Assembly (NCBI RefSeq): GCF_900141915.1
Contig: NZ_FQZG01000039.1
Span: forward strand, 1 to 39,139
Reading direction: 5' to 3'
From: Tessaracoccus bendigoensis DSM 12906
GTDB taxonomy: Bacteria; Actinomycetota; Actinomycetes; Propionibacteriales; Propionibacteriaceae
DNA: 39,139 bases
The notes under the pieces were generated by a model, which had not been told where the DNA came from, did not search any database, and worked only from the letters and a program-made list of their open reading frames with translations. Position numbers and translations under genes: made by a program. How positions within the stretch are numbered: position 1 is the first letter of the stretch; each line of letters begins with the position of its first letter. Below are positions 3 through 39,139 of the stretch, piece after piece.

Positions 3-156
3 GGTTGAGCCGCCTCGCGAGGAACGAGCGAGGCGTGTCGAAACCACCTTGCGCACGATGCAGGGTCCTGACCCCACTTCTTGAGAGGGTCTGTGGGAAT
101 GGTCGCGTTGGTTTCGTCACGGTCCCCGGCGCTTCGGCGGTGGGACCGGCTCAACC
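3..156. repeat. Nested palindromic intergenic element, copy A (inverted relative to the 10.5 kb copies)
   Basis: Arms of about 43-47 nt (3-45 and 110-156) are inverted copies of one another, running from GGTTGAGCC to CGAAACC. Each arm also holds its own hairpin: CCTCGC/GCGAGG in the left arm and GGTCCC/GGGACC in the right. The central 64 nt match, in reverse complement, the centre of the copies at 10507-10792 (shared CGCGACCAT and TGCGCAAGGT), so this copy has the opposite orientation. No credible coding sequence lies here. Confidence 0.85.
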
Positions 157-246
157 GACGCGCGGCCCGGCTCAACCGACCCGCGGCCCGGCTCAACCGA
201 CCCGCGGACCGGCTCAACCGACCGACGACCCGGCTCCTCAACCGTC
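148..246. repeat. 21-bp tandem repeat made from the element's GGCTCAACC end
   Basis: GGCTCAACCG recurs at 148, 169, 190 and 211, a strict 21-bp period with spacers such as ACCCGCGGCCC. A degenerate CTCCTCAACCG copy follows near 234. It reads as a seven-residue PAQPTRG repeat in one frame, but that frame has no other coding character. The array grows directly out of the right end of the palindromic element and runs into the 3' end of the methyltransferase gene. Confidence 0.85.
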
Positions 247-1023
247 CGCCGGCCTCAATTCGTAGGCCAAGATCGCGGCCGCCGTCGCAACGTTCAAAGA
301 GTCCACGCGGTCGGTCATCGGGATGCGGACATGCAGGTCGGCCCCTTCCTGCCACGCCGCGCTCAACCCGGCGCCTTCCGTGCCCAGCAGCAGCGCGACC
401 CGCTCGGGAACCTGAATCCCCGGCAGCTCAACGGCAAGTGGCGACAGCGTCGCGGCGACCACGGTGAACCCGGCTGCGCGGAGCCGCTCCGGCCCCTCCC
501 CCAGCCCCAACCGCAGCCACGGCAACTCCAACGACCCGCCCATCGACGCCTTGACGGCTCTCCGGTACAGCGGGTCGGCCGAGCCGTGCGACAGCACCAA
601 CGCATCCCAACCGAGCCCCAACGCCACCCTGACGATGGCGCCGAGGTTGGTGTGGTCGACGATCTCCTCGCACACCAGCACCCGGGAGGCGTCCTTGACC
701 AAAGCCCAAGGCGCCTCTGGCGGCCGGTCGAACGAACCGAGCGCCCCGCGATGGACGTGGAACCCGCTGATCCGTTCAATCATCTCCTCAGAAGCCACAT
801 ACACAGGCAGCTCCGGCCACGCCCCCAGCAGCGGGGCCAGGCCCTCCAACCAGCGCGGCTGCAGCAGCATCCCGCGGGGGCGGCACCCGGCCGCGAAGGC
901 CCGCTGGATGATCTTCACTCCCTCCGCGATGAACCTGTCACCCGAGCGACGCAGCTGGGAATCCCTCAGCCCGGTGAAGTCGCGCAGGCGAGGGTCTGCG
1001 GGGTCGGTTACCTCGATCAGCAC
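238..1023 (-). CDS. TrmH/SpoU-family RNA 2'-O-methyltransferase
   Basis: A 261-residue SPOUT methyltransferase predicted to transfer a methyl group from S-adenosylmethionine to a ribose 2'-OH in rRNA or tRNA. The N-terminal 95 residues look like the substrate-binding domain (FIAEGVKIIQRA). The C-terminal knot carries the three SpoU motifs: HTNLGAIVR near residue 124, LLLGTEGAGLS near 212 and IPMTDRVDSLNVATAAAIL near 234. The exact target base cannot be told. The start is GTG at 1023, with no Shine-Dalgarno site but a TAGCCT box six bases upstream, so it is probably leaderless. The stop TGA falls inside a GGTTGAG motif of the adjoining repeat array. It is divergent from the pabB-pabC fusion, only 23 bp away. 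Confidence 0.88.
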   Translation of the reverse strand: MLIEVTDPADPRLRDFTGLRDSQLRRSGDRFIAEGVKIIQRAFAAGCRPRGMLLQPRWLEGLAPLLGAWPELPVYVASEEMIERISGFHVHRGALGSFDRPPEAPWALVKDASRVLVCEEIVDHTNLGAIVRVALGLGWDALVLSHGSADPLYRRAVKASMGGSLELPWLRLGLGEGPERLRAAGFTVVAATLSPLAVELPGIQVPERVALLLGTEGAGLSAAWQEGADLHVRIPMTDRVDSLNVATAAAILAYELRPADG

Positions 1024-1029
1024 GGCGCC

Positions 1030-1035
1030 AGGCTA
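1030..1035 (-). promoter_or_regulatory. -10 box of the TrmH-family gene
   Basis: TAGCCT on the minus strand, then six bases, then the GTG start. This fits a leaderless transcript. It shares two base pairs with the opposite -10 box at 1034-1039. Confidence 0.55.
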
Positions 1036-1039
1036 CCCT
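1034..1039 (+). promoter_or_regulatory. -10 box of the pabB-pabC gene
   Basis: TACCCT followed by seven bases and the ATG at 1047, with no Shine-Dalgarno site between, fits a leaderless start. The box overlaps the divergent TAGCCT box by two base pairs. Confidence 0.55.
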
Positions 1040-1046
1040 TGCCCGC

Positions 1047-2690
1047 ATGAAACCCTTCGCCCTGCTCGACGATGCGCAGGGCGGAACGCTCGAACTGCTC
1101 GATGATCTGGCCAGGGTGGATCCGGTCGATCCCGATACGCTTGACGACGCGCTGAACGACGGTTGGGCACGCGGGTGGCGCTCGCTGGCGTGGCTGCCCT
1201 ACGAGTGGGGCAAGGTCGACGGCGCCGTCTACTGGTTCGCCCGCACCGCGGCCCTCCATGCCTTCCCCGCGTCGGGCCCCGGGCACCTTTCGCCCCTCAC
1301 TCCAGACATCACACAGGCCGACCATGGCGCCGCCGTCGCCGTCCTTCACGAGGCGATCGCCGCAGGGGACAGCTATCAGGTCAACTACACATTCCGGCTG
1401 CGCGGGCGCCTCACCGGCGACCCGGTCGGCCTCTACCGCCGCCTGCGGCTCAGGCAGCCGACACCCTTCGGCCTGGTAGCTCACCTTCCAGAACCGGCCG
1501 ACCCGTGGACGCTCAGCCTCAGCCCCGAACTCTTCCTGCGGGTAGAAGGCGACCAGGTGACCGCCAGGCCCATGAAGGGCACCGCGACCGCCGACCTTCC
1601 CCCCACCGCGCTCTCTGCGGACCCGAAGAACCGGGCCGAGAACCTGATGATCGTCGACCTCCTCAGAAACGACCTGTCGCGGGTCGCGGACGGCGTGGAG
1701 GTCGTCGACCTGTTCGGCGTCGAACGCGTCGGCGACCTGTGGCAGATGTCGACGACGGTGCAGGGTCGGCTGCGCCCCGACGTCACTCCTGCGAGCCTGC
1801 TGCGGGCGACGTTCCCCTGTGGGTCGATCACCGGGGCTCCGAAGCTGTCGAGCATGGACCTCATCTCGCGGGTCGAGGCCTCACCTCGCGGCATCTACAC
1901 CGGGGCGCTCGGTACCATCGATCCCGGCGGCATGCGACTCAGCGTCGCGATCCGTACCCTCACCGTCGACGCCGCCTCGAATGCGACGCTGGGAATCGGT
2001 GCCGGGATCGTCGCCGACAGCGTCGCCGCCCTCGAATGGGAGGAGTCGTTGGCCAAGGCCACCTTCACGCGCCCGCCCATCCTGAAGGAGGCGCTCCGCG
2101 TGATCGACGGCGTCGCCCCGCTCAAGGCCTTCCACGAGAAGAGGCTGAGTGCCGCGGCAAACGAGCTCGGCTACCCGTTGCCCGACAACTGCATCGACGA
2201 CGCGGTCCGGGATACCCCGCCCGGGCTCTGGCGGCTCGGCCTCGACGTCGCCTCTGACGGCACCGTCGAGGTGACCAGGTCTCCCCTGGTACCCGTACAG
2301 GATGTGACGGTGCTGCTCGCGCAACGACCGTGGCCGGTCGGGCCGCTGACGCACCTCAAGACGTCCGAGCGGGCTCATCTCGATGAGGCCTGGCGAGGGG
2401 CAGAGATGTTTGGAGCGTTTGACGCGATCGGCTTCGACGAGGCGGGCCTGGTGCTGGAGGGCGGCCGCTGCAACGTGTTCGCGCTACTGGACGGACGGTG
2501 GGTCACCCCGCGGGCCGGGATGCTCCCGGGCGCGCAGCGGGCGGCGGTGCTCGACGATCCCTCGCTGCTCGGCACCGACCGCATCGATGAGGTCGACCTG
2601 GTGGTCGCCGACCTCCGACGCGCGGACCGTATCGTGGTCACCAATGCCGTCCGCGGCATCCTCAACGCGCATCTGGAGGAGCGTCCTTGA
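1047..2690 (+). CDS. Aminodeoxychorismate synthase component I fused to aminodeoxychorismate lyase (PabB-PabC)
   Basis: A 547-residue bifunctional folate enzyme. Residues about 1-350 are the chorismate-binding PabB half, which aminates chorismate to 4-amino-4-deoxychorismate. Its hallmarks are ENLMIVDLLRNDLSRV, the GSITGAPK loop with the PabB-type active-site lysine, and GIGAGIVADS. Residues about 355-547 are a class IV aminotransferase fold like PabC, which releases p-aminobenzoate and pyruvate. Its candidate PLP lysine is in THLKTSERAH, and GLVLEGGRCNVFAL follows. The glutaminase subunit PabA is not in the window. The start is ATG at 1047 behind a TACCCT box (leaderless). The stop overlaps the TTG start of the next gene (TTGA), so the two are probably translationally coupled. 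A shared role with the permease is not evident. Confidence 0.9.
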   Translation: MKPFALLDDAQGGTLELLDDLARVDPVDPDTLDDALNDGWARGWRSLAWLPYEWGKVDGAVYWFARTAALHAFPASGPGHLSPLTPDITQADHGAAVAVLHEAIAAGDSYQVNYTFRLRGRLTGDPVGLYRRLRLRQPTPFGLVAHLPEPADPWTLSLSPELFLRVEGDQVTARPMKGTATADLPPTALSADPKNRAENLMIVDLLRNDLSRVADGVEVVDLFGVERVGDLWQMSTTVQGRLRPDVTPASLLRATFPCGSITGAPKLSSMDLISRVEASPRGIYTGALGTIDPGGMRLSVAIRTLTVDAASNATLGIGAGIVADSVAALEWEESLAKATFTRPPILKEALRVIDGVAPLKAFHEKRLSAAANELGYPLPDNCIDDAVRDTPPGLWRLGLDVASDGTVEVTRSPLVPVQDVTVLLAQRPWPVGPLTHLKTSERAHLDEAWRGAEMFGAFDAIGFDEAGLVLEGGRCNVFALLDGRWVTPRAGMLPGAQRAAVLDDPSLLGTDRIDEVDLVVADLRRADRIVVTNAVRGILNAHLEERP

Positions 2691-3658
2691 AGCTCAAGCT
2701 TGATCCGAACCTGATGATCATCCTCGGTTCGCTGGCCCTTGGCCTGTCGTTGCCCGTTTCGGGCACCTCTGCGGACGTGTTGAATGTGATCGAGAAGGTC
2801 GCCATCTTCGTGCTGTTCTTCGGTTACGGGGCACGCCTATCGGCCGCAGAATCGCTGGCCGGGTTGAAGAACTGGAAGCTCCACGTCGCGATCCTCGGTA
2901 CGACTTTCGTGGTCTACCCATTGATGTCGCTGCCGATGCGGTGGCTGCCCGAGGCATGGGTCTCCACCCCGATCCGGATGGGGCTGATCTTCCTGTGCCT
3001 AGTGCCATCGACGGTGCAGTCGTCCATCACTTTCACGTCTCTGGCCCGCGGCAACATCGCCGCCGCCATGGTGTCGGCGACCGCGTCCAACGTGCTCGGG
3101 GTGCTGTTCACCCCGCTTCTGGTGATGCTGCTGATCCCCGACGCGGGCGGGGGCAGCGTGGGTGCCGGGCAGCTGGTCAACGTCGTGCTGCAACTACTGC
3201 TCCCGTTCTTCCTCGGCCAACTCTCCCGGTTCGCCACCGCCGAGTTCATGTCGAAACACAAAGCGCGCCTGAAGTACCTGGACCAGGGCGTGATCTGCCT
3301 GATCGTCTACGCGGCCTTCTCCGACCTGCGGGTCTCGGGCGTGTGGCGCCAGCTCCAGATCGGCGACCTGATCGGCGTGCTTGTGATCGTCGCCGTGCTG
3401 CTGACCTTCATGTTCTGGTTCACCTGGCATCTCGGGAAATGGATGGGGATGCCGCGCGGAGACCAGATCGCCCTGCTGTTCTGCGGCACGAAGAAGTCGC
3501 TTGCCACCGGGGTCCCGATGGCGAGCGTCCTGTTCAGCGGGCCGGTCGTCAGCGTGCTGGTGATCCCACTGATGCTCTACCACCAGTCCCAGCTGATCGT
3601 CAGCTCCGTCCTCGCCGGACGGCTCCGGGAAACGATGCCAGAGCCGCCATCGGCCTGA
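2687..3658 (+). CDS. Bile acid:sodium symporter-like (SBF-like) membrane transporter
   Basis: A 323-residue integral membrane protein with about nine or ten hydrophobic segments. It has the conserved block LVPSTVQSSITFTSLARGN (about residues 105-123) and the late motif CGTKKSLATGVPMA near 265, both typical of the SBF-like branch related to E. coli YfeH. The family contains Na+-coupled carriers of organic anions, but the substrate of this branch is generally unknown. The start is TTG at 2687, chosen because GGAGGA at 2675-2680 sits six bases upstream and because the TTG overlaps the preceding stop. It ends 8 bp before the convergent SPFH gene, and no hairpin was seen between them. Confidence 0.82.
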   Translation: MKLKLDPNLMIILGSLALGLSLPVSGTSADVLNVIEKVAIFVLFFGYGARLSAAESLAGLKNWKLHVAILGTTFVVYPLMSLPMRWLPEAWVSTPIRMGLIFLCLVPSTVQSSITFTSLARGNIAAAMVSATASNVLGVLFTPLLVMLLIPDAGGGSVGAGQLVNVVLQLLLPFFLGQLSRFATAEFMSKHKARLKYLDQGVICLIVYAAFSDLRVSGVWRQLQIGDLIGVLVIVAVLLTFMFWFTWHLGKWMGMPRGDQIALLFCGTKKSLATGVPMASVLFSGPVVSVLVIPLMLYHQSQLIVSSVLAGRLRETMPEPPSA

Positions 3659-3666
3659 CCCCTGCT

Positions 3667-4833
3667 CTACTTCTCCACTTCCAGGTCGGGTTGCTCGGCC
3701 GGCTCGGGCTGCGCGGACGGCTCGGCCTGCCCGATTGCTGGAGTCTCGCCCGTGCTCCGCGACGGCAGGCGCCCGGCCTCCAGCGTCTTGGCGTCGGCGA
3801 TGGCCCGCTCGACGGTGGCGTTGGTGCGCCTCTGCTCACTCTCGGCATGGGCCTGGATCTCGGCGTGTACGTCCACCTTCTCGGGCGCCGCGAACTTCCT
3901 GACGGCGTGCGAAAGATAGTCGCGCACCTCCGGCTCGCCGCTGACCTGCCCGAGCCCCTTCAGGGCATCATTCAGCTCAGAAGGCACGATCCACACCTTG
4001 TTCGCGTCGCCCTGGGCCAGCTTCGGCATCATCTGCATGTACTCGTAGGCGAGCAGGGCCTGATCGGGTTCAGCAGCATGGATCGCGCTGAACACCGTCG
4101 AAATCGCCTGCGCCTCGCCCTCGGCCCGAAGCATCTGGGCCTGCCGTTCGGCCTGTGCGCGTAGCACCTGGGCCTCACGGTCGCCCTGCGCCCGGAGGAT
4201 CGCGGCCTCCCGATCGCCTCCGGCGGAGAGGATCATCGCCTGCCGCTCGCCTTCGGCCCGCAGGATCTGGGCACGCTTGTCGCGCTCGGCCCGGGCACCC
4301 TTCTCCATGGCATCGCGGATCGTGGGCGGTGGCTCGATGGCCCGCAGCTCGACCCGGTTGACCTTGATGCCCCATTTGCCGGTCGCCTCGTCGAGCACCA
4401 TCCGCAAGCGTTGGTTGATCTCCTCACGTGAGGTGAGCGCGGCTTCCAGATCCATCCCGCCGATGATGTTGCGCAGCGTCGTCATGGTGAGCTGCTCGAT
4501 GGCGGCCCGGTAGTCCTGCGCCTCATAGGCCGCCCGGCGTGGGTCGACGACCTGGTAGTAGATGACCGAGTCGATCGAAACCATCAGGTTGTCCTCGGTG
4601 ATCACGCCCTGCGGTGGGAAGGGGATTACCTGCTCGCGCATATCGAGGGTGTAGCGGATCTGGTCGAAAAATGGGATAACCAGGTGCGGGCCCGGTTCGA
4701 GCGCGCGCCGGAACTTGCCGAGCCGCTCGACCAGCGACACGTGTTGCTGGCGGATGATCTTCAAGGTTGCGGCAAGCATGAGCACCACCACCACCACCAG
4801 CACTATTAGTAGGATCACACTGAGTCCAGGCAT
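3667..4833 (-). CDS. SPFH/Band 7 (stomatin/HflK-like) membrane-anchored protein
   Basis: A 388-residue protein with one N-terminal membrane anchor (about residues 5-24, a run of V/L/I). A Band 7 domain follows (about 25-190): VSLVERLGKFRRALEPGPH, then TEDNLMVSIDSVIYYQVVDP. Next is a long charged helix (about 190-250) with an 11-residue periodicity of the ILRAxGxRxAQ type, as in oligomerising stomatins. The tail after about 350 is rich in P, E and A and looks disordered. Such proteins form ring-shaped scaffolds in functional membrane microdomains. AGGAGG lies five bases before the ATG. It is the last gene of ABC ATPase-NfeD-SPFH, 20 nt after NfeD. Pairing with NfeD is the classical arrangement. 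Confidence 0.9.
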   Translation of the reverse strand: MPGLSVILLIVLVVVVVLMLAATLKIIRQQHVSLVERLGKFRRALEPGPHLVIPFFDQIRYTLDMREQVIPFPPQGVITEDNLMVSIDSVIYYQVVDPRRAAYEAQDYRAAIEQLTMTTLRNIIGGMDLEAALTSREEINQRLRMVLDEATGKWGIKVNRVELRAIEPPPTIRDAMEKGARAERDKRAQILRAEGERQAMILSAGGDREAAILRAQGDREAQVLRAQAERQAQMLRAEGEAQAISTVFSAIHAAEPDQALLAYEYMQMMPKLAQGDANKVWIVPSELNDALKGLGQVSGEPEVRDYLSHAVRKFAAPEKVDVHAEIQAHAESEQRRTNATVERAIADAKTLEAGRLPSRSTGETPAIGQAEPSAQPEPAEQPDLEVEK

Positions 4834-4853
4834 GGCTGCCTCCTAAATTGCGG

Positions 4854-5330
4854 CTAACTTCCTAGTGCTTTCGAGGCCGGGTAGACGATCAGCGTGATGC
4901 CGTCCAGGGCGAAAACTTCGATGTCTTCACCGTTCTCGATGGGGATGCCGGGATCGTAGGCCCGCGCCTCCCAGATCTGTCCGTCGACCTTCACCTCACC
5001 CATCGACCCGGTGACCGCGCTGGTGGCGACCCCCTTTGAGCCGACGAGGTTGTCAAAGGTCGAGCGGTAGCCGGGCGCGTTGCGGACCCTGGCCAACAGC
5101 GTCGGACGGAGCAGGAACAGCGTTGCGACGGCGGTGATGACGGCGATCAGCACTTGGAGCCAGAGCAGCCCGGGAAATACGAGCGCGGTCACGCCACCCA
5201 TCAGAGCGCCGGATGCGAGCATCAGAAGCGTCAGGTCGAGCGTCAGGAGTTCGGCCGCGGCCAACCCGAGCCCCAGGATGCCCCAGGCGGCCCACAGGTT
5301 GCTCCGGACCCACTCCACGAACTCGTTCAT
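4854..5330 (-). CDS. NfeD-family membrane protein
   Basis: A 158-residue protein with an N-terminal amphipathic stretch and three or four membrane helices (about residues 12-80), including the acidic-hydrophobic LAAAELLTLDLTLLMLASGA. A soluble OB-fold NfeD domain follows (about 95-155): LVGSKGVATSAVTGSMGEVKV, then GEDIEVFALDGITLIV. NfeD proteins partner SPFH proteins, and the next gene is one. I chose ATG at 5330 over the upstream in-frame GTG at 5351. It forms an ATGA overlap with the ABC ATPase stop and has GAGGAG six bases upstream. Confidence 0.88.
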   Translation of the reverse strand: MNEFVEWVRSNLWAAWGILGLGLAAAELLTLDLTLLMLASGALMGGVTALVFPGLLWLQVLIAVITAVATLFLLRPTLLARVRNAPGYRSTFDNLVGSKGVATSAVTGSMGEVKVDGQIWEARAYDPGIPIENGEDIEVFALDGITLIVYPASKALGS

Positions 5331-6112
5331 CGCCTGCTCCTCGCCCCCCACCTGCCGTCGCGGTGCTCGACCGTGAGGGGCAGCCCGAAGGTCCGGCTCA
5401 AGTTCGCGTCCGTCAGCGTCTCATCGATCGGCCCGGCGGCGACGACCCTGCCCGCGTCGAGCAGCAGCGCGTGGGTGATGCCCCGGGGAATCTCCTCGAT
5501 GTGGTGTGTGACCAACACGGTCGCGGGGGACGCCGGGTCCTCGCAGAGCTGGGACAAGGTATCGACCAGCGCTTCGCGGCCTGCGAGGTCGAGCCCGCTG
5601 GCCGGTTCGTCCAGCAGCATCAGCTCCGGGTCCGGCATCAGGGCGCGGGCGATCTGGACGCGCTTGCGTTCGCCCTCACTGAGGGTCCCGAAGGTGCGCT
5701 CAGCGAGGTGATCGATCCGAAGAGACGCCAGCAAGCGTGTCGCACGCTCCATGTCGTAGTCGTCGTAGTCTTCTCGCCAGCGGCCGACGACCGCGTAGCC
5801 GGCCGACAACACGACGTCGCGGACCCGCTCACCTGCGGGGATCCGTTCGGCGAGCGAAGAGGAGGACAATCCGATTCGGGGACGCAACTCGAACACGTCG
5901 ACGGTGCCGATCACCTCGTCGAGGACGCCGACGACCCCCTCGCTCGGGTAGAGCTGCGCGCCCAACAACTGGATGAGCGTGGTCTTCCCGGCGCCGTTGG
6001 GCCCGATCACCACCCAGCGCTCGCCTTCTCCCACGACAAGTTCGACGGAATCGAGCAGAACCGCATTTCCACGTCGAACCGTCACGCCTGCAAGTTCAGC
6101 CACCATCGCCAT
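5327..6112 (-). CDS. Orphan ABC transporter ATP-binding protein (YlmA/ModF-like)
   Basis: A 261-residue single nucleotide-binding domain. Walker A is GPNGAGKTT near residue 38. The signature is LSEGERKR rather than LSGGQ, Walker B is ELMLLDEPASGLD, and the H-loop is VLVTHHIEEIP. LSEGE is usual in this soluble subgroup. No permease is adjacent. Instead the gene overlaps NfeD by ATGA, suggesting its partner is encoded elsewhere or that it works with the NfeD/SPFH membrane proteins. The second possibility is inference. The ATG at 6112 has TAGGTT six bases upstream and no Shine-Dalgarno site, so transcription may start at the codon itself. A second ATG two codons in is possible. Confidence 0.85.
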   Translation of the reverse strand: MAMVAELAGVTVRRGNAVLLDSVELVVGEGERWVVIGPNGAGKTTLIQLLGAQLYPSEGVVGVLDEVIGTVDVFELRPRIGLSSSSLAERIPAGERVRDVVLSAGYAVVGRWREDYDDYDMERATRLLASLRIDHLAERTFGTLSEGERKRVQIARALMPDPELMLLDEPASGLDLAGREALVDTLSQLCEDPASPATVLVTHHIEEIPRGITHALLLDAGRVVAAGPIDETLTDANLSRTFGLPLTVEHRDGRWGARSRR

Positions 6113-6118
6113 GCGTCA

Positions 6119-6124
6119 AACCTA
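6119..6124 (-). promoter_or_regulatory. -10 box of the ABC ATPase-NfeD-SPFH operon
   Basis: TAGGTT, six bases, then ATG at 6112: a leaderless arrangement. It lies in the 59-bp gap after fabI, so this set may be transcribed both from here and by read-through from fabG-fabI. Confidence 0.5.
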
Positions 6125-6171
6125 CCGGACCGGGCGAAACGACGGTGGCGCGCCACCCCGTCAGGAGTCGA

Positions 6172-6945
6172 TCACGCTCCGGTGGAGTGCAGGCCCCCGT
6201 CGACGTGGACCATCTCGCCGGTGGTGGCCGGGAACCAGTCGCTGAGCAGCGCGACGATCGCCTTGGCCGAGGGCACCGCGTCGGCCGGGTTCCAGCCGAG
6301 CGGTGCCCGTTCGCCCCAGATGTCGTTGAACGATGACGCGCCCGGGATGGCCTTCTTTGCAACGGTGTCGACGGGGCCGGCGGCCACCAGGTTGCAGCGG
6401 ATGCCGTCGGGGCCGAGGTAACGGGCGAGGTAGCGCGAGGTCGACTCGAGGGCTGCCTTCGCGACGCCCATCCAGTCGTAGGTCGGCCAGGACACGGTCG
6501 CGTCGAACGTGAGGCCCACGATGCTGGAGCCGCGGCCCAGCATGGGTCGCGCGGCCATCGTCAGCGACTGAAGCGAGTACGCGGAGATGTGCATCGCGTT
6601 GGCGACGGCGTCCCATCCGGTAGAGAGGAACTTGCCGCCCAACGCGGATTCGGGGTCGGCGTAGGCGATCGAGTGCACGATGCCGTCGAGCCGGTCGCCG
6701 AAATGCTCCGAGAGCTGCTCGGGGAGGGCCGCGAGGTGTTCGGGGTCGGTGACGTCGACCTCAATCAGCGGTGGCACGGTGTCGAGCCTCGAGATCGCCC
6801 GCTGAGCGGGGGCGACGGCCCTGCCCGCGGCTGAGACGACGACGTTGGCGCCCTCCCGCTGCGCGATGTCGACGACGGCGTACGCGATGGAGGTGCGCAT
6901 GGTCACGCCGGTGACCAGGATGTTCTTGCCTTCGAGGATTCCCAT
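6172..6945 (-). CDS. fabI: Enoyl-[acyl-carrier-protein] reductase, InhA-type
   Basis: A 257-residue short-chain dehydrogenase-like reductase that carries out the last step of fatty-acid elongation, reducing trans-2-enoyl-ACP with NAD(P)H. It begins like InhA (GILEGKNILVTGVTMRTSIA, the atypical FabI nucleotide-binding loop). It carries the FabI active site FDATVSWPTYDWMGVAK, with Tyr156 and Lys163 spaced Y-x6-K as in InhA Tyr158/Lys165. The C-terminal GEMVHVDGGLHS block is also typical. AGAAGG lies eight bases before ATG 6945. It follows fabG by 16 nt, the same order as mabA-inhA in mycobacteria. Cofactor preference cannot be read from the sequence. Confidence 0.93.
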   Translation of the reverse strand: MGILEGKNILVTGVTMRTSIAYAVVDIAQREGANVVVSAAGRAVAPAQRAISRLDTVPPLIEVDVTDPEHLAALPEQLSEHFGDRLDGIVHSIAYADPESALGGKFLSTGWDAVANAMHISAYSLQSLTMAARPMLGRGSSIVGLTFDATVSWPTYDWMGVAKAALESTSRYLARYLGPDGIRCNLVAAGPVDTVAKKAIPGASSFNDIWGERAPLGWNPADAVPSAKAIVALLSDWFPATTGEMVHVDGGLHSTGA

Positions 6946-6961
6946 GATCGATGCCTTCTCT

Positions 6962-7675
6962 TTAGTGGCCCATGCCGAGGCCGCCGTCGACAGGCAGCAC
7001 GGCTCCGGAGATGTAGCCGGCGTGTTCGCCGGCGAGGAACAGCGCCGCGTCGGCGACGTCGTCGACCGACCCGAGCCGGCCGGCCGGGATACGCGCCTTG
7101 TAGCCGGCGATGACGTCGTCGCTGAGCACGGCGGTCATGTCGGTCTCGATGAACCCGGGGGCGATCACGTTGGCGGTGACGTTCCGGGTGCCTAGCTCGC
7201 GGGTGAGGCTGCGCGCCATGCCGACCAGCGCCGACTTGCTGGACGAGTAGTTGATCTGGCCGGCGGATCCGAAGAGGCCGACGACCGACGAGATGAGGAT
7301 GACGCGGCCGAAGCGGCCCCGCATCATCGGACGGCTGGCGCGGCGGACGACGCGGAAGGTGCCAGTGAGGTTGGTGTCGATGACGGTGTTCCAGTCGTCG
7401 TCGGACATCCGCATGAGCAGGGTGTCCTTGGTGACGCCCGCGTTGGCGATGAGGATCTCAACCGGCCCGAGTTCCTTCTCGACGTTATCGAAGGCCAGGT
7501 CGACCTGGGCCTGGTCGGTGATGTCGCACACCACCCCGAGGACCCCTTCGGGCACGTCCCCCGAACGGTAGGTCGCCGCGACGCGGTACCCGGCGTCGCG
7601 GAACTTCTCTGCGATGGTGCGTCCGATGCCCTTTGAGCCACCGGTGACCAGGACTACTCGTGATTGATCTGCCAC
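6962..7675 (-). CDS. fabG: 3-oxoacyl-[acyl-carrier-protein] reductase
   Basis: A 237-residue classical short-chain dehydrogenase reducing beta-ketoacyl-ACP with NADPH. It shows the Rossmann motif TGGSKGIG near residue 10, the NAG motif (IANAGVTKDTLLMRM), the catalytic Ser in ILISSVVGLFG with YSSSK downstream, and the FabG ending GAVLPVDGGLGMGH. I chose GTG at 7675 (MADQSRVVLV) over the in-frame TTG three codons upstream. TAAGTT lies seven bases before the GTG, no Shine-Dalgarno site exists for either, and the protein then starts like its relatives. It forms an operon with fabI. Confidence 0.92.
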   Translation of the reverse strand: MADQSRVVLVTGGSKGIGRTIAEKFRDAGYRVAATYRSGDVPEGVLGVVCDITDQAQVDLAFDNVEKELGPVEILIANAGVTKDTLLMRMSDDDWNTVIDTNLTGTFRVVRRASRPMMRGRFGRVILISSVVGLFGSAGQINYSSSKSALVGMARSLTRELGTRNVTANVIAPGFIETDMTAVLSDDVIAGYKARIPAGRLGSVDDVADAALFLAGEHAGYISGAVLPVDGGLGMGH

Positions 7676-7682
7676 GAGGAGC

Positions 7683-7688
7683 AACTTA
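7683..7688 (-). promoter_or_regulatory. -10 box of fabG-fabI
   Basis: TAAGTT with seven bases to the GTG start and no ribosome-binding site. It lies in the 23-bp gap after the lipoprotein gene. Confidence 0.45.
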
Positions 7689-7698
7689 CCGCAGGGAG

Positions 7699-8451
7699 TC
7701 AGTTACAGCGCGATGTGATGAAACCGGCAAGTCCTTTGTCTTCCCGGTCGGTCTCCAGGTTCCAGGTGTCCTTGGTGGCTGCCCCGATCATGTGACAGGC
7801 GAGTTGATTGACCGAGCTCGGGGTGTCGAGAAGGGCTTCATACTCCGGCTGGCTGTCGATCAGCTCGGCCATCATGACCGGTGCCAGCGCCACGGCACCG
7901 AGTGGATCGCCGGGGGTGAGATCCCGGGCGAGGCGGGTGGGCGTCACCAGTATCCGGGCGGCCGATTCCCATTCGGCCGACTCCACCAGCGTCGTCCCCG
8001 CGAGGAAGGTGACGGACGTGGCCGCCTCCGGAGCGTCGATCCTGGCCGCTGCCCCATCCGCCCTGAAGGGGGAAACGGTCTCGGCTCCCGCGTCGTCGGT
8101 GGCCGTTGGTCTGGTGAGCAGCCAACCGTTGGCGATCGTGATCCGCCCTGCGACAACCTGCCAGGGCGAGCCGTCGATGGCGATCGTCGGCTCAGGGACG
8201 GCAGGCAGGCTGAGCGCGAGCGATCCGTCGGGCAGTTCCTCGACGCTTGCTGAGGTCGGCAGCACCAGAGTCACGCCCCCGAGGTCGACCGATGTGGTTG
8301 GCTCCGAAGTGGTCGGTGTGACGGCCGGGCTCGTTCTGGGGGTGACGGAGGACGGGGGTGGGGTGGTCGTCGGCGCGGGGGCGTCCGCGGGCGCACAGGA
8401 GGCGAGCACCAACGTCGCGACGACCGCCACCACCCGCGCCGAGAACCCCAT
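7699..8451 (-). CDS. Secreted lipoprotein with a C-terminal DUF2599-like domain
   Basis: A 250-residue protein. The N terminus is a signal peptide ending in the lipobox LVLASC, so Cys18 should be lipidated and the protein exported. Residues about 19-52 form a Thr/Pro/Ser-rich linker. The last 40 residues (QLACHMIGAATKDTWNLE through to the terminal CN) match the DUF2599 pattern of Cys-His, DTWNLE and a closing Cys-Asn; the two cysteines probably form a disulphide. The function of DUF2599 is unknown to me. ATG 8451 is preferred because TATCCT lies six bases upstream and the protein then begins with a proper signal sequence. The gene is divergent from DUF3099. Confidence 0.75.
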   Translation of the reverse strand: MGFSARVVAVVATLVLASCAPADAPAPTTTPPPSSVTPRTSPAVTPTTSEPTTSVDLGGVTLVLPTSASVEELPDGSLALSLPAVPEPTIAIDGSPWQVVAGRITIANGWLLTRPTATDDAGAETVSPFRADGAAARIDAPEAATSVTFLAGTTLVESAEWESAARILVTPTRLARDLTPGDPLGAVALAPVMMAELIDSQPEYEALLDTPSSVNQLACHMIGAATKDTWNLETDREDKGLAGFITSRCN

Positions 8452-8457
8452 CCCAGG

Positions 8458-8463
8458 AGGATA
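8458..8463 (-). promoter_or_regulatory. -10 box of the DUF2599 lipoprotein gene
   Basis: TATCCT, six bases, ATG at 8451; no Shine-Dalgarno site. Leaderless arrangement. Confidence 0.5.
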
Positions 8464-8494
8464 ACTCGGGCAGACGGCCACCACGGGAGGGGCC

Positions 8495-8500
8495 TAAGCT
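8495..8500 (+). promoter_or_regulatory. -10 box of the DUF3099-SURF1-RlmA operon
   Basis: TAAGCT, six bases, ATG at 8507. GGGGG lies between the box and the ATG but is too close to act as a ribosome-binding site, so a leaderless start is favoured. Confidence 0.5.
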
Positions 8501-8506
8501 GGGGGC

Positions 8507-8827
8507 ATGTCCCGCACGCGCGACGCGACGCTCATCACGAACGCGAGTCGCAGCCAGACCCTGGAGCTCGCCGAGCGCCAGAAGCGCTACCTGATCACCA
8601 TGGGTATCCGCACCGGCTGCTTCCTCGCGTTCCTGATCGTGCCGGGTTGGTGGAAGCTGGTGGCCCTCGGAGCGGCCGCGCTGCTGCCTGCCTTCGCCGT
8701 GTTGTTCGCCAACAACGCGGACCATCACGCCCCTACGGCCGCACCGGACGGGGAGGGAGCGCAAGTTCGCGCGATCACCACGGGCGATGTGGTGCGTGGC
8801 ACCGTCGAGGAGGAAACCGACAAGTGA
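8507..8827 (+). CDS. DUF3099 family membrane protein
   Basis: A 106-residue protein with two closely spaced hydrophobic segments (about residues 32-48 and 50-68). It matches the actinobacterial DUF3099 pattern: LITNASRSQTLELAERQKRY, then MGIRTGCFLAFLIVPGWWKL, then LLPAFAVLFANN. The C-terminal 35 residues are polar and acidic. No biochemical function is known to me. The stop overlaps the GTG start of the SURF1 gene (GTGA), so the two are likely co-translated. A role near cytochrome oxidase assembly is only an inference from this neighbour. Confidence 0.8.
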   Translation: MSRTRDATLITNASRSQTLELAERQKRYLITMGIRTGCFLAFLIVPGWWKLVALGAAALLPAFAVLFANNADHHAPTAAPDGEGAQVRAITTGDVVRGTVEEETDK

Positions 8828-9666
8828 ATCGGCAGGTAAGGCGCTGGATCGCGATGGGCGTGCTCGTCGTGATCCTGGTCATCACGTTCATCCAGCTCGG
8901 TGAGTGGCAGCTTCGTCGCCTCGACGAGCGCCGCGACTCGAACGCGACGGTGCAGGCGCACGAGGCGTTGCCGGTGCAGCCGTACCAGGAGGTGATGAAC
9001 CGCGAGATCGACGAGGCCGACCAGTGGTACCGCGTCACGGCGACGGGCTCCTACACCGGCGCCCAGTTCCAGGTGCTGTACCGCTCGTTGGACGGGTCCT
9101 ACGGCAGCGAGGTCGTCGCGGTGCTGGCCACCGATCAGGGCCAGAACCTGCTGGTCAACCGCGGCTTCCTCACCCGGCAGCCCGGGCACCCGGACGGCGA
9201 GATGCCCGCGACGCTTGAGGGCACCGTAACCGTCACCGGCTACGTCCGTCGAAACGACGGCGACGATGAGAACGCCGCGACACCGCACGAGAACCAGGTG
9301 CGGCTCATCAACTCCGATGCCATCGGCAAGGCTCTCGGAGAGGAGGTCGTGAACGGCTACGTCTCGCTGATCGAGTCGACCCCGTCCGATCCCGGAGGAC
9401 TGACTCCGCTGCACTCCCCGAACCTGGAGGACGAAGGGCCACACCTGAGCTACGCCTTCCAGTGGTTCGCCTTCACCGCGATCGCCGTGATCGGCTTGGG
9501 GGTACTGATCAGAGCCGACGTTCGGGACAGGCGGAAGGCGAAGGCCGTCGCCGAACGGGCTGACGCGGCGAGGGAGGGCGCGGCACGAGGAGAGGCGGCG
9601 CCGAAGGATGTGGCACGGGACGGGGTCGGCGAGGAGTCGGAGGGCGTCCGGGAGGAGGCGCGGTGA
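8824..9666 (+). CDS. SURF1-family cytochrome c oxidase assembly protein
   Basis: A 280-residue membrane protein with a short cytoplasmic start, a first membrane helix (about residues 10-25) followed by the family motif LGEWQLRRLDERRD, a large extracytoplasmic domain, and a second helix near 225-245 preceded by HLSYAFQWFAFTAIA. Both motifs are diagnostic of SURF1, which helps insert heme A into oxidase subunit I. The tail after 250 is a charged Ala/Glu/Arg run of low complexity. The GTG at 8824 has GAGGAGG ten bases upstream and overlaps the previous stop. Heme A itself would come from CtaB and CtaA, encoded later in this window. Confidence 0.9.
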   Translation: MNRQVRRWIAMGVLVVILVITFIQLGEWQLRRLDERRDSNATVQAHEALPVQPYQEVMNREIDEADQWYRVTATGSYTGAQFQVLYRSLDGSYGSEVVAVLATDQGQNLLVNRGFLTRQPGHPDGEMPATLEGTVTVTGYVRRNDGDDENAATPHENQVRLINSDAIGKALGEEVVNGYVSLIESTPSDPGGLTPLHSPNLEDEGPHLSYAFQWFAFTAIAVIGLGVLIRADVRDRRKAKAVAERADAAREGAARGEAAPKDVARDGVGEESEGVREEAR

Positions 9667-10454
9667 GCGGTCTCGACTGGACCGCCTGCCCACACTGCCA
9701 CGAGCCACTCACCCGCACCGGTCGAGCCCTGCGCTGCCCCGTCGGGCATTCGTACGACGTGGCTCGCCAGGGCTACGTCAACCTGCTCGGCCAGGCGCCC
9801 CCGGCGAACGCGGACACCGCCGACATGCTGGATGCACGGTCGCGGTTCCTGGCCGCTGGCCACTACGACGAGGTCGCCCTGGCGGTGGCCGGGGGCGTGA
9901 CCGGGCGACGCGTCGTCGAGGTGGGTGCCGGGACGGCGTTCTACCTTTCGTGGGCGCTCGATGAGCACCCGGATGCGGAGGGCCTGGCGACGGACGTGTC
10001 GGTCGCCGCGGCGAAGCGGGCCGCGCGGGCACACCCGAGGGTCGCCGCGGTCGTCGCCGACACCTGGGCGGGGCTGCCGCTCGTCGACGCATCGGTGGAC
10101 ACCATCGTGTGTGTGTTCGCGCCGCGGAACCCGGCCGAGTTCGCCCGCGTGTTGCAGCCGGGCGGCACCCTGGTCGTCGCGCAGCCGGCCGCCGACCACT
10201 TGATCGAGTTGCGCGAACGCTACGGCCTGCTGGGGGTGGCTGCGGACAAGGTCGACCGGTTGGGCGCGGCCTTCCCGGGCTGGACGGTGTCGTCACGTCG
10301 CGAGGTGCGCTCGCGGGCGTCCCTGACGGCCGTCGAGGTCGCCGACCTGATCGCGATGGGCCCCAACGCCTTCCACGGGCTGCCTGGAGAGGTGGGGTCG
10401 GCGGAGGTGCAGGTGTCGGTCGACGTGCTTGCCCTGCGGTCGCCGGGAGGGTGA
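9663..10454 (+). CDS. RlmA-like 23S rRNA (guanine-N1)-methyltransferase
   Basis: A 263-residue S-adenosylmethionine-dependent methyltransferase. The first 45 residues are an RlmA-type zinc ribbon: CPHC (from about residue 9) and then CPVGHSYDVARQGYVNLL. The Rossmann domain has VVEVGAGTAFYL as motif I near 82 and a PPAN-like acceptor strand replaced by CVFAPRNPAEF. Family members modify G745 or G748 of 23S rRNA, and which one cannot be told here. The GTG at 9663 overlaps the SURF1 stop (GTGA) with GAGGAGG upstream. The gene ends 12 bp before a block of palindromic repeats. Confidence 0.83.
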   Translation: MSGLDWTACPHCHEPLTRTGRALRCPVGHSYDVARQGYVNLLGQAPPANADTADMLDARSRFLAAGHYDEVALAVAGGVTGRRVVEVGAGTAFYLSWALDEHPDAEGLATDVSVAAAKRAARAHPRVAAVVADTWAGLPLVDASVDTIVCVFAPRNPAEFARVLQPGGTLVVAQPAADHLIELRERYGLLGVAADKVDRLGAAFPGWTVSSRREVRSRASLTAVEVADLIAMGPNAFHGLPGEVGSAEVQVSVDVLALRSPGG

Positions 10455-10465
10455 GACGAGGCGCC

Positions 10466-10498
10466 GGTTGAGCCGCCTTGCGAGGAACGAGCAAGGCG
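10466..10498. repeat. Palindromic element fragment
   Basis: A single left arm (GGTTGAGCC and a CCTTGC/GCAAGG hairpin) that stops before the GTGACGAAACC end found in full copies. It directly precedes copy B. Confidence 0.8.
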
Positions 10499-10506
10499 CC
10501 CCCGCC

Positions 10507-10646
10507 CGTTGAGCCGCCTTGCGAGGGACGAGCAAGGCGTGACGAAACCCTCGCGACCATACCCAGGGGACTCGTGGACAAGTCCCTGCACCGTGCGCAA
10601 GGTGGTTTCGTCACGGGCCGCTCGTCCCTCACGGCCCGGCTCAACC
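10507..10646. repeat. Nested palindromic intergenic element, copy B
   Basis: 140 bp. The left arm (10507-10549) and right arm (10604-10646) are inverted copies of one consensus, GTTGAGCC to GACGAAACC. The left arm has the inner stem GCCTTGC/GCAAGGC around GAGGGACGA, and the right arm has GGGCCG/CGGCCC. The centre contains a GGGACT/AGTCCC stem. It is nearly identical to copy C and opposite in orientation to copy A. Confidence 0.9.
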
Positions 10647-10653
10647 AGCCGCC

Positions 10654-10792
10654 GGTTGAGCCGCCTTGCGAGGAACGAGCAAGGCGTGACGAAACCCTCG
10701 CGACCATACCCAGGGACTCGTGGTCAGGTCCCTGCACCGTGCGCCAGATGGTTTCGTCACGGGCCGCTCGTCCCTCACGGCCCGGCTCAACC
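10654..10792. repeat. Nested palindromic intergenic element, copy C
   Basis: 139 bp, a direct repeat of copy B starting seven bases after it. The arms are 10654-10696 and 10750-10792. Differences from B are few (for example GAGGAACGA in place of GAGGGACGA in the hairpin loop, and one base fewer in the central CAGGGG run). The remaining 80 bp to the AAA+ ATPase (10793-10872) hold a poly-C run and the -10 box, and nothing else recognised. Confidence 0.9.
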
Positions 10793-10872: not shown

Positions 10873-12261
10873 ATGGACATCGACGACGACCTGCGCTCGT
10901 TCCTCGCCCAGTTCTCCAAACTTGGCGAACTGGCGAACACCGTGCAACAGGCTGGCGCCGTCACCTCACTCACCGACGCCCTCAGCGCCCACCTTGGCAG
11001 GTCGGCCGAGGAGGTCGCGACCGTCTCGAAGGAGGTCCCCGGCTACCGGTTCGCCGACTACGACGTCGCCTTCGAACTTCTCGCCGGACCCGACGCCACC
11101 CTGATCGGGATCGGCGGCGGCGATCAGCGCCAACACATGTCGCTCGGCGACATGGTCGGAAACCAATGGAACCGGCTCCCGGTCGGCCAGGTCGACTGGG
11201 CCGACATCGCCATCAACGCGACCGAGACCCGGCGGGTCGTGGCGCTCGGAATCCGCCTGTTCAGATTCCACGATCAACCGGTTGCCGTACTCACCAGGCG
11301 AAACTCGCAGATGCACGGCAACGGTCAGGGCGTGATCGAGGTCCTGAGCCCCGACGGGCAGGTCGCCAGCGACCTCATCGCAGAAGCGACCAGGGTCGGG
11401 ATCGAACGCTCCGTCCTTCGTGGCAACGTGATCAGCCTGGAGTTGGTTGGCTACGAAGGCGAGGGCGACGGGTTCCGGTTCATCCCACGACCAGACGTCC
11501 CCGCCGAGGCCGTAATCCTGCCTGAGGGAACCCTTGAACGGGTCACGGGCCACGTGCTGGGCGTGGCTGAGCATGCGGAGATGCTTCGCCGATACGGGCA
11601 GCACCTGAAACGTGGTGTCCTTCTCTACGGGCCACCAGGCACAGGCAAGACCCACACGGTTCGGCACCTGCTCTCGATAGGCACTGGTCACACGGTGATC
11701 CTGCTCTCGGGCCAGACGCTGGAATTCGTGCGGCAGGCCACCTCGATCGCCCGACACCTTCAACCCGCGATCGTGGTGCTCGAAGACTGCGACCTGGTTG
11801 CGATGGGACGCGACTTCGGTCCGGCCGGTCAGCCGTTGCTGTTCGAATTACTCGACGCCCTCGACGGGCTCGACACCGACACCGACATCGCATTCGTGCT
11901 CACCACCAACCGGGTCGACGTGCTGGAGGAGGCGCTCACGCAACGTCCGGGCCGCGTCGACCTCGCCGTCGAGATCGCGCCGCCAGACCAGGAAGCACGC
12001 AGGCGACTGCTGGACCTCTACCAGGGCACGGTCTCGTTCTCCGAGGCCGCCCTCGACGAGGTGGCAAGGCGCAGCGACGCGCACACCGCGTCGTTCTTCA
12101 AGGAACTCATCCGCCGAGCCGTGCTGTACGCCGCGGAAGACGGCCTTGAGCCGACCGACGTGCATCTCCTGTCCGCGCTCGCCGCACTCCAATCGGACCA
12201 GGAGGCGCTGTCGCGCAACCTCGTAGGAGGCTTCATGGACCCGTTCACCGAAGAACTCTGA
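10873..12261 (+). CDS. AAA+ ATPase with an unrecognised N-terminal domain
   Basis: A 462-residue protein. Residues about 1-215 match no family I can name. The AAA module follows: Walker A GPPGTGKT at 253-260, a Walker B of the form VVLEDCD (Glu304-Asp305, so ED rather than DE, as in Bcs1-like and some VCP-like ATPases), sensor 1 FVLTTNRVD, the arginine-finger block QRPGRVDLAVEI, and a C-terminal helical lid. No transmembrane segment or protease domain is attached, so it is probably a remodelling ATPase of unknown client. I start at ATG 10873 because TACTCT sits six bases upstream; open frame continues upstream only through repeat DNA. It overlaps the GPH symporter by one base (TGATG), so the two are translationally coupled. 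Confidence 0.85.
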   Translation: MDIDDDLRSFLAQFSKLGELANTVQQAGAVTSLTDALSAHLGRSAEEVATVSKEVPGYRFADYDVAFELLAGPDATLIGIGGGDQRQHMSLGDMVGNQWNRLPVGQVDWADIAINATETRRVVALGIRLFRFHDQPVAVLTRRNSQMHGNGQGVIEVLSPDGQVASDLIAEATRVGIERSVLRGNVISLELVGYEGEGDGFRFIPRPDVPAEAVILPEGTLERVTGHVLGVAEHAEMLRRYGQHLKRGVLLYGPPGTGKTHTVRHLLSIGTGHTVILLSGQTLEFVRQATSIARHLQPAIVVLEDCDLVAMGRDFGPAGQPLLFELLDALDGLDTDTDIAFVLTTNRVDVLEEALTQRPGRVDLAVEIAPPDQEARRRLLDLYQGTVSFSEAALDEVARRSDAHTASFFKELIRRAVLYAAEDGLEPTDVHLLSALAALQSDQEALSRNLVGGFMDPFTEEL

Positions 12262-38621: not shown

Positions 38622-38681
38622 CACGGAGCGCCCGCTTCCGACCGGACGCCGCCGGGCTCGGCCCTTCCGCATGTAAATGCC

Positions 38682-39139
38682 GCTGGTGACGAGCCTTTCC
38701 GCAGGTATCGACGCCGGAACGCTGGTGACCAGCCTTCCGCAGGTATCGGCGGCGGCTCCGGGCTGGGTGACTCTAGGGCCTGCCGTGCTCGTCCGTCGAG
38801 CTGCCAGGTGGTGGTGATGGTCGTGGACACCAGCGGTTTGCGGCCGATACCAGCAGTATCGCTGGACACCAGCCGTATACCGCTGGTGACCAGCCCTTCC
38901 ACAGGTAACGGCGCCGGAACGCTGGTGACGCGCACGCCGCTGGCGACCGGGTGTCCCACGGCACGTGCCCCGAGACGACGCGGGTGGTGCTGTTGATCGG
39001 CCCGGACACCAGCGGTTTGTGGCCGATACCAGCAGTATCGCTGAACACCAGCCGTATACCGCTGGTGACGAGCACTTCCACAGGTATCGACGCCGGAACG
39101 CTGGTGACCAGCCTTTCCGCAGGTATCGGCGGCGGCTCC
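38682..39139. repeat. Complex intergenic repeat block rich in GCTGGT/ACCAGC
   Basis: A unit of about 39 bp (GCTGGTGACSAGC, CTTYCRCAGGTA, CGCCGGAAC) occurs at 38682, 38882 and 39061, each time directly followed by a further GCTGGTGAC at 38721, 38921 and 39100. A 105-bp segment repeats at 38825-38929 and 39004-39108 with about six differences. The first 78 bp recur at 39061-39139. Palindromes abound, including GCTGGTGACCAGC, CACCAGC-N8-GCTGGTG and CCAGC-AGTATC-GCTGG. No coding sequence is credible in 38622-39139, and the block continues past the window end. Confidence 0.85.

Follow-up and report, generated by a model that had tools for sequence, protein, structure and literature searches.

The BIMEs of Enterobacteria are mosaics of inverted palindromic units arranged in tandem clusters, and the attC sites of integrons carry the cores GTTRRRY/RYYYAAC and go with an integron integrase. 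In 2011, Bertels and Rainey reportedly treated GTAG REPs and REPINs together with RAYT. The pairing of GTAG REPs/REPINs with a RAYT transposase is also set out in the accessible part of Nunvar 2010 (PMC2817692). According to the accessible part of Di Nocera 2013 (PMC3733652), REPs occur mainly in Proteobacteria, GTAG REPs are linked to RAYT transposases, and CGTC REPs, with a stem of 8–9 bp and a loop of 4–5 (Table 1 of that paper), have no dedicated transposase; the phyla that this part names for CGTC REPs are Proteobacteria, Chlorobi, Bacteroidetes, Spirochaetes and Thermotogae, and Actinobacteria are not among them.

The repeat family of Tessaracoccus bendigoensis analysed here works, by anatomy, like a REP, BIME or REPIN: a short imperfect palindrome recurs many times between genes, frequently as inverted pairs. 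In the T. bendigoensis genome, the family departs from GTAG REPs in tag and RAYT, and from CGTC REPs in the keeping of the tag and in stem and loop size. With GTAG REPs and REPINs, it shares short imperfect palindromes, many intergenic copies, inverted pairs with a spacer, and stem changes that keep the palindrome. In contrast to them, its arm is longer and has tandem GA mismatches as well as a second, outer stem, the genomes searched hold no Y1 transposase, and the arms of the T. bendigoensis genome carry no GTAG at the stem foot: GAGCC precedes the stem in the arms listed, where a GTAG or GTRG head would stand, and where GTAG does occur, in a few arms (GCGAGTAGGC), it lies within the hairpin. 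With CGTC REPs, as described in the same partial source (PMC3733652), it shares the lack of a dedicated transposase and dimers of like or unlike arms, and the complement of most T. bendigoensis arms reads CGTC beside the stem. However, this tag is not kept in relatives, where the complement strand reads CGAC (most other Tessaracoccus arms shown) or CGATAC; the stem is ~7 bp in T. bendigoensis and shorter in, for example, L276 and L098; loops are at least 9; and the arms have GA mismatches in the loop and a separate outer stem. Like the BIMEs of Enterobacteria, the family forms mosaics of inverted units and tandem clusters, but the unit sequence is unrelated. The ends GTTGAGC/GCTCAAC fit the attC core letters by eye. 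An open-access keyword search, with most subscription journals outside its reach, returned no paper describing this repeat family among the matches listed. If a large family in actinobacteria has another frame and lacks a RAYT, the question of what else moves REPs would become testable.

Copies in the window and in the genome

The window, i.e., the whole 39,139-nt stretch analysed, was read directly and contains three inverted-arm elements (3–156, 10507–10646 and 10654–10792) and a truncated arm, as the first-pass annotation had claimed, with the stem pairs named there all present (Table 1). The full arms are 43 nt long in five cases and 47 nt in the sixth (110–156), and elements 2 and 3 are separated by 7 nt. 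A small gene finder trained on the window puts element 1 downstream of a SpoU methylase gene (238–1023, − strand), and elements 2 and 3 between two + strand genes, which a domain search identified as a methyltransferase (9759–10454) and an AAA ATPase (10873–12261).

Table 1. Repeat features of the window
Feature	Position	Strand	Description
Left arm, element 1	3..45	+	hairpin GCCTCGC/GCGAGGC, tail GTGTCGAAACC; also matched by covariance models
Core, element 1	46..109	+ (orientation defined as + in this analysis)	64 nt
Right arm, element 1	110..156	-	47 nt; hairpin GGTCCC/GGGACC
About four 21-nt units	157..240		each an arm end (GGCTCAACC) plus spacer
Truncated arm	10466..10499	+	hairpin GCCTTGC/GCAAGGC kept; without 3' tail GTGACGAAACC
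Left arm, element 2	10507..10549	+	first letter C, not G; covariance-model match
Core, element 2	10550..10603	-	54 nt
Right arm, element 2	10604..10646	-	hairpin GGGCCG/CGGCCC; exact-pattern and model match
Left arm, element 3	10654..10696	+	hairpin GCCTTGC/GCAAGGC; exact-pattern and model match
Core, element 3	10697..10749	-	53 nt; predicted hairpin CAGGGAC/GTCCCTG
Right arm, element 3	10750..10792	-	hairpin GGGCCG/CGGCCC; exact-pattern and model match

The 21-nt units are also seen upstream of many other arms and look like leftovers of truncation or slippage; recombination or slippage could be the source of both the tandem copies and the 21-nt array. A second repeat family, rich in CACCAGC/GCTGGTG palindromes, occupies positions 38677–39139 of the window and adjoins arms in two other contigs (C118, at L048; C133, at L056 and L058).

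The genome is a draft of 158 contigs (4.13 Mb); one protein encoded in the window shares 66–73% identity with three named Tessaracoccus records. The exact pattern GGTTGAGCCN{0,30}GACGAAACC occurs at 97 places in the draft (49 + 48), four of them in the window, whereas the reversed pattern, used as a control, occurs at none; a covariance model built from 20 arms raised the count to at least 150 arms. The case that the first-pass annotation had named as speaking against its reading, a genome with only these copies, does not hold with this count. Many draft contigs end in or near an arm (C15, C17, C27, C53, C86, C91, C99 and others); the assembly was probably interrupted by the repeats, and the copy numbers given here may therefore be too low. 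Other palindromes are found within the family. Five elements (C73, C89, C130, C147, C148) have cores of 146–147 nt that enclose a nested palindromic insert around TTAACATCGCGATGTT, which also stands beside unpaired arms in C34, C65, C69 and C102; an inverted repeat around GTGCATAGATCTCTGTATACGTGGAGGC is inserted in or beside arms at L036 and L048 (cores of 229 and 224 nt; C88 and C118) and in C119, C123 and C150.

Fold and covariation of the arm

The unit of the family is best explained as the ~43-nt arm. It folds into an imperfect hairpin, in which the outer stem (GGTY...RACC) is followed by a tandem GA/GA mismatch, an inner stem that covaries and a short loop; many copies consist of two inverted arms with unlike stems flanking a core of 50–70 nt. 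In 20 arms, hand-picked for diversity, all seven inner-stem pairs change on both sides, and double-change cells number 44 versus 15.3 in shuffles, with 0/500 shuffles reaching 44 and at most 13 such cells when the partner is slid. A set of 73 distinct arms from eight other genomes, found with the model and hence biased towards paired arms, has 8/12 pairs changing on both sides and 112 double-change cells versus 31.0 in shuffles (0/500 reach 112). Two further statistics were not clearly above shuffles, namely the count of pairs with a double change (reached by 32/500 shuffles for the 20 arms and 69/500 for the 73 arms) and further pair types (238/500, 20 arms). The excess of double-change cells in both sets supports the maintained fold proposed in the first-pass annotation.

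The outer stem is invariant in the 20-arm set and covaries across species (GGTT/AACC, GGTC/GACC): in 133 distinct arms, a model-found set with the same bias towards pairing, the variable pair is T/A in 94, C/G in 35 and other in four, i.e., 129 are paired, and the C/G pair was absent from the training set of the first model. The GA/GA mismatch beside the outer stem is kept in 129/133 arms, and a second GA...GA closes the loop in 98/133, with 83 of these 98 loops (hand sum) reading GNA or GNNA. In DNA, loops of this type, like tandem GA pairs, are unusually stable.

Pairing in the inner stem is strong without being complete. Among 70 distinct T. bendigoensis arms, 320 of the 350 cells at the first five stem positions are paired (318 Watson-Crick and 2 G-T), and 28 arms have at least one non-paired cell; many of these belong to bulge or shift classes (GCCCGG, GCGCC, GGGCCG/CCGCCC), and in a few a lone mismatch has no compensating change, as in GTCTCG/CGAGCC and GGTCCC/GGTACC. 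The earlier statement that the stem always stays paired is therefore right for the arms of the window and too strong for the genome, where a few arms do have uncompensated changes, the kind of copy which that reading took as counting against it.

Genomic placement and spread among Actinomycetes

Of the 106 sites counted in nine genomes, 104 fall outside predicted genes, a count for which T. bendigoensis arms were taken as those starting with GGTTGAGCC, CGTTGAGCC or AGTTGAGCC, with two false regex matches left out and with 38 of the sites having no gene on one side; in genome G002, 145/148 arms are outside predicted genes. The family is thus intergenic, and its inverted pairs are dispersed as in REPs and BIMEs.

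In G002, the origin was set at dnaA (in agreement with GC skew) and the terminus was taken to lie opposite. The 106 sites of this genome are concentrated towards the origin (KS p = 2e-8), with five in the outer 30%, a pattern noticed post hoc. Arms of class T46 follow the replichore in 36/45 cases ([27,4],[5,9]; p = 9e-4, or p = 0.003 with one arm per site; post hoc), and classes T43 (p = 0.27) and T45 (p = 1.0) show no such bias, in a classification that leaves 31/148 arms unclassified. When arms are sorted by length alone, again post hoc, p for replichore orientation is 2.5e-4 for those of 46 nt and 0.012 for all 148. Core orientation, clear in 21 of the 22 paired elements, is 12 − and 3 + on the right replichore and 5 + and 1 − on the left. 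In the T. bendigoensis draft, the dnaA contig is the richest in arms, with 18 of the 150 matches listed, in five clusters, where 0.8 sites would be expected assuming 95 in all (Poisson p = 0.001; post hoc). G005 has no origin crowding: by hand count, 12 of its 19 mostly weak arms are in the terminus half. Origin crowding and replichore orientation are a lead, not a result.

Matches were found in 25/147 genomes of the order and, under stricter filters that lose weak matches, in 32/374 genomes of the class, covering 9/134 genera and six families (T. bendigoensis is included in both counts). Within Tessaracoccus, the distribution is patchy, from 0 to at least 148 arms per genome, the highest count being 148 matches among 150 candidates scored. 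The exact pattern was sought in 60 genomes (T. bendigoensis and 59 relatives) and, besides T. bendigoensis, was found in one genome of the same genus, G008, in two elements with other stems; a single 22-nt match in G036 was taken as chance. Carriage by phages was considered and rejected, as the 12 exact matches in viral contigs had, by eye, neither an arm-like hairpin nor a partner arm and were ascribed to chance; blastn gave no match in plasmids and phages.

One orthologous locus displays presence and absence: G010 has an element in a spacer whose counterpart in G023 is without it, and a G023 element ~1.2 kb away is absent in G010. Exact element boundaries and any target-site duplication were not readable; at this locus the flanks have diverged. 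It was the one usable locus from a search with joined G023 flanks, and it has diverged edges and no precise empty site. As to the features of MITEs of a DDE insertion sequence, namely a target-site duplication and a parent element sharing the ends, this one locus with diverged flanks offers no precise empty site, and no transposase was seen near arms by eye. In G023, the same element is found at two places (L120 and L121), each with a GGCGTTATTCACG flank, apparently another repeat.

Proposed mobilisation and competing explanations

We consider it probable that the family is a REP-like repeat that is non-autonomous and depends for its movement on an enzyme acting in trans, apparently not of the Y1 type, which our searches did not find. 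What was observed directly is how many copies there are, that their stems covary, that they lie between genes, how they are spread across Actinomycetes, and their presence or absence at one orthologous locus; as no enzyme was found, we infer the transposition itself. In the mechanism we envisage, a protein acting in trans would recognise the hairpin on a single DNA strand and then move or copy the element, with the constant GA mismatches fixing strand and register. Pairs of unlike arms would survive because like arms would form a long perfect palindrome. None of the 23 paired T. bendigoensis elements has identical first six stem letters in both arms, versus ~2 expected from an estimate based on stem frequencies; with so few expected, the absence of like-armed elements is weak evidence. 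The lack of a dedicated enzyme has a precedent in CGTC REPs, as given in the accessible part of PMC3733652. A bolder extension, possible but doubtful, is that the family belongs to a class-wide actinobacterial REP-like superfamily, with a tandem-GA hairpin frame unlike that of GTAG and CGTC REPs, moved as single-stranded DNA at replication by a non-Y1 enzyme, which would leave copies near the origin and oriented by replichore.

It is unlikely that the arms are instead a transcribed RNA element, such as a terminator, an mRNA stabiliser or an RNase target at gene ends, with the RNA fold under selection. Nearly all sites are intergenic, as such an element would have it, and the folding energies leave room for it. 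As RNA, the strand with GA is the more stable in 57/70 arms and the less stable in 12/70, whereas as single-stranded DNA it is more stable than its complement in 34/70 and less so in 36/70; since RNA energies favour the GA strand and DNA energies do not, the arms may have a role in RNA. Yet the family is patchy in one genus and multiplied in single species, occurs in tandem copies and clusters, has no link between T46 arms and gene strand in G002 (5/2 and 10/4, p = 1.0), and drew 0 Rfam matches at gathering score in the window.

Movement by a RAYT or TnpA enzyme (IS200/IS605, Y1), which the first-pass annotation had proposed, is improbable; its gene would have to have been lost, to have diverged beyond the reach of Pfam, or to lie in a gap of the assembly. 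The imperfect hairpin and the intergenic inverted pairs are those of REPs and REPINs, and the accessible part of PMC3733652 describes REP dimers made of unlike arms. In several relatives, GAGTAG replaces GAGCC, bringing GTAG to the stem foot (L125 and L126 in G025, L097 in G073, L278 in G069, L281 in G043, L284 in G040 and L282 in G091). Against it, PF01797, the Y1 family, had no match at E<=0.01 in the T. bendigoensis genome, none in 39 Tessaracoccus genomes (this one and G025 included) and none in ten element-bearing genomes of other genera (G073 and G043 included), while it matched 6/14 control genomes, E. coli among them. With PF01797 unmatched in all element-bearing genomes searched, neither a RAYT gene flanked by repeats nor a Y1 TnpA of the IS200/IS605 type was seen, and the RAYT/Y1 candidate was rejected: the enzyme is not a Y1 transposase detectable by Pfam. 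The maintained fold, the REP/BIME-like inverted pairs, the intergenic placement and the many copies of the first interpretation are supported, and its Y1 enzyme is not. In the sample of PMC6006769, as far as the accessible part goes, Actinobacteridae have Y1 genes of subclass 1.1 only. Genes close to the arms, judged by eye from sequence, named no other candidate: 276 ORFs from loci near arms, clustered with a home-made filter, included no recurring transposase, and none of the three G002 genes flanked on each side by an arm no more than 250 nt away looks transposase-like.

That the arms are a DNA site used by the host, for chromosome organisation or for replication near the origin, and spread through usefulness, is very improbable. 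It would account for the origin crowding and T46 orientation in G002 and for the arm-rich dnaA contig of T. bendigoensis, but these patterns were all noticed post hoc, the T43 and T45 classes are unbiased, the mostly weak arms of G005 fall largely in the terminus half, and no match turned up in most of the genomes sampled from the order and the class.

Least probable of all is that the whole element is the unit, its inverted arms folding jointly into a four-way junction on which a junction enzyme would act: the fold is attractive (10654–10792, as single-stranded DNA, is predicted to form such a junction with no unpaired base where the stems meet, z = -5.6), yet the arms show no covariation with each other. 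Only one position of the joint stem varies (A/T), and there the arms agree in 16/23 elements versus 15.6 expected if independent (23 of the 33 paired elements, with cores of at most 70 nt), and some arms carry the tail GTGGGCGTTACC, which mismatches its partner GTGACGAAACC. In L093 and L283, the facing arms differ, one being GGTT/AACC and the other GGTC/GACC, and the outer pair agrees within each arm, so that each arm pairs with itself. On these three grounds the arm, not the element, was taken as the unit of the REP-like repeat. An alignment covered 22 of the 23 elements and two of G008. Similarity of the core nonetheless extends across species: letters resembling CACGGTGCAG are found in G000, G008 and G023 alike, and the cores of G002, read in the opposite orientation, resemble those of G000 around CCGACCACA.
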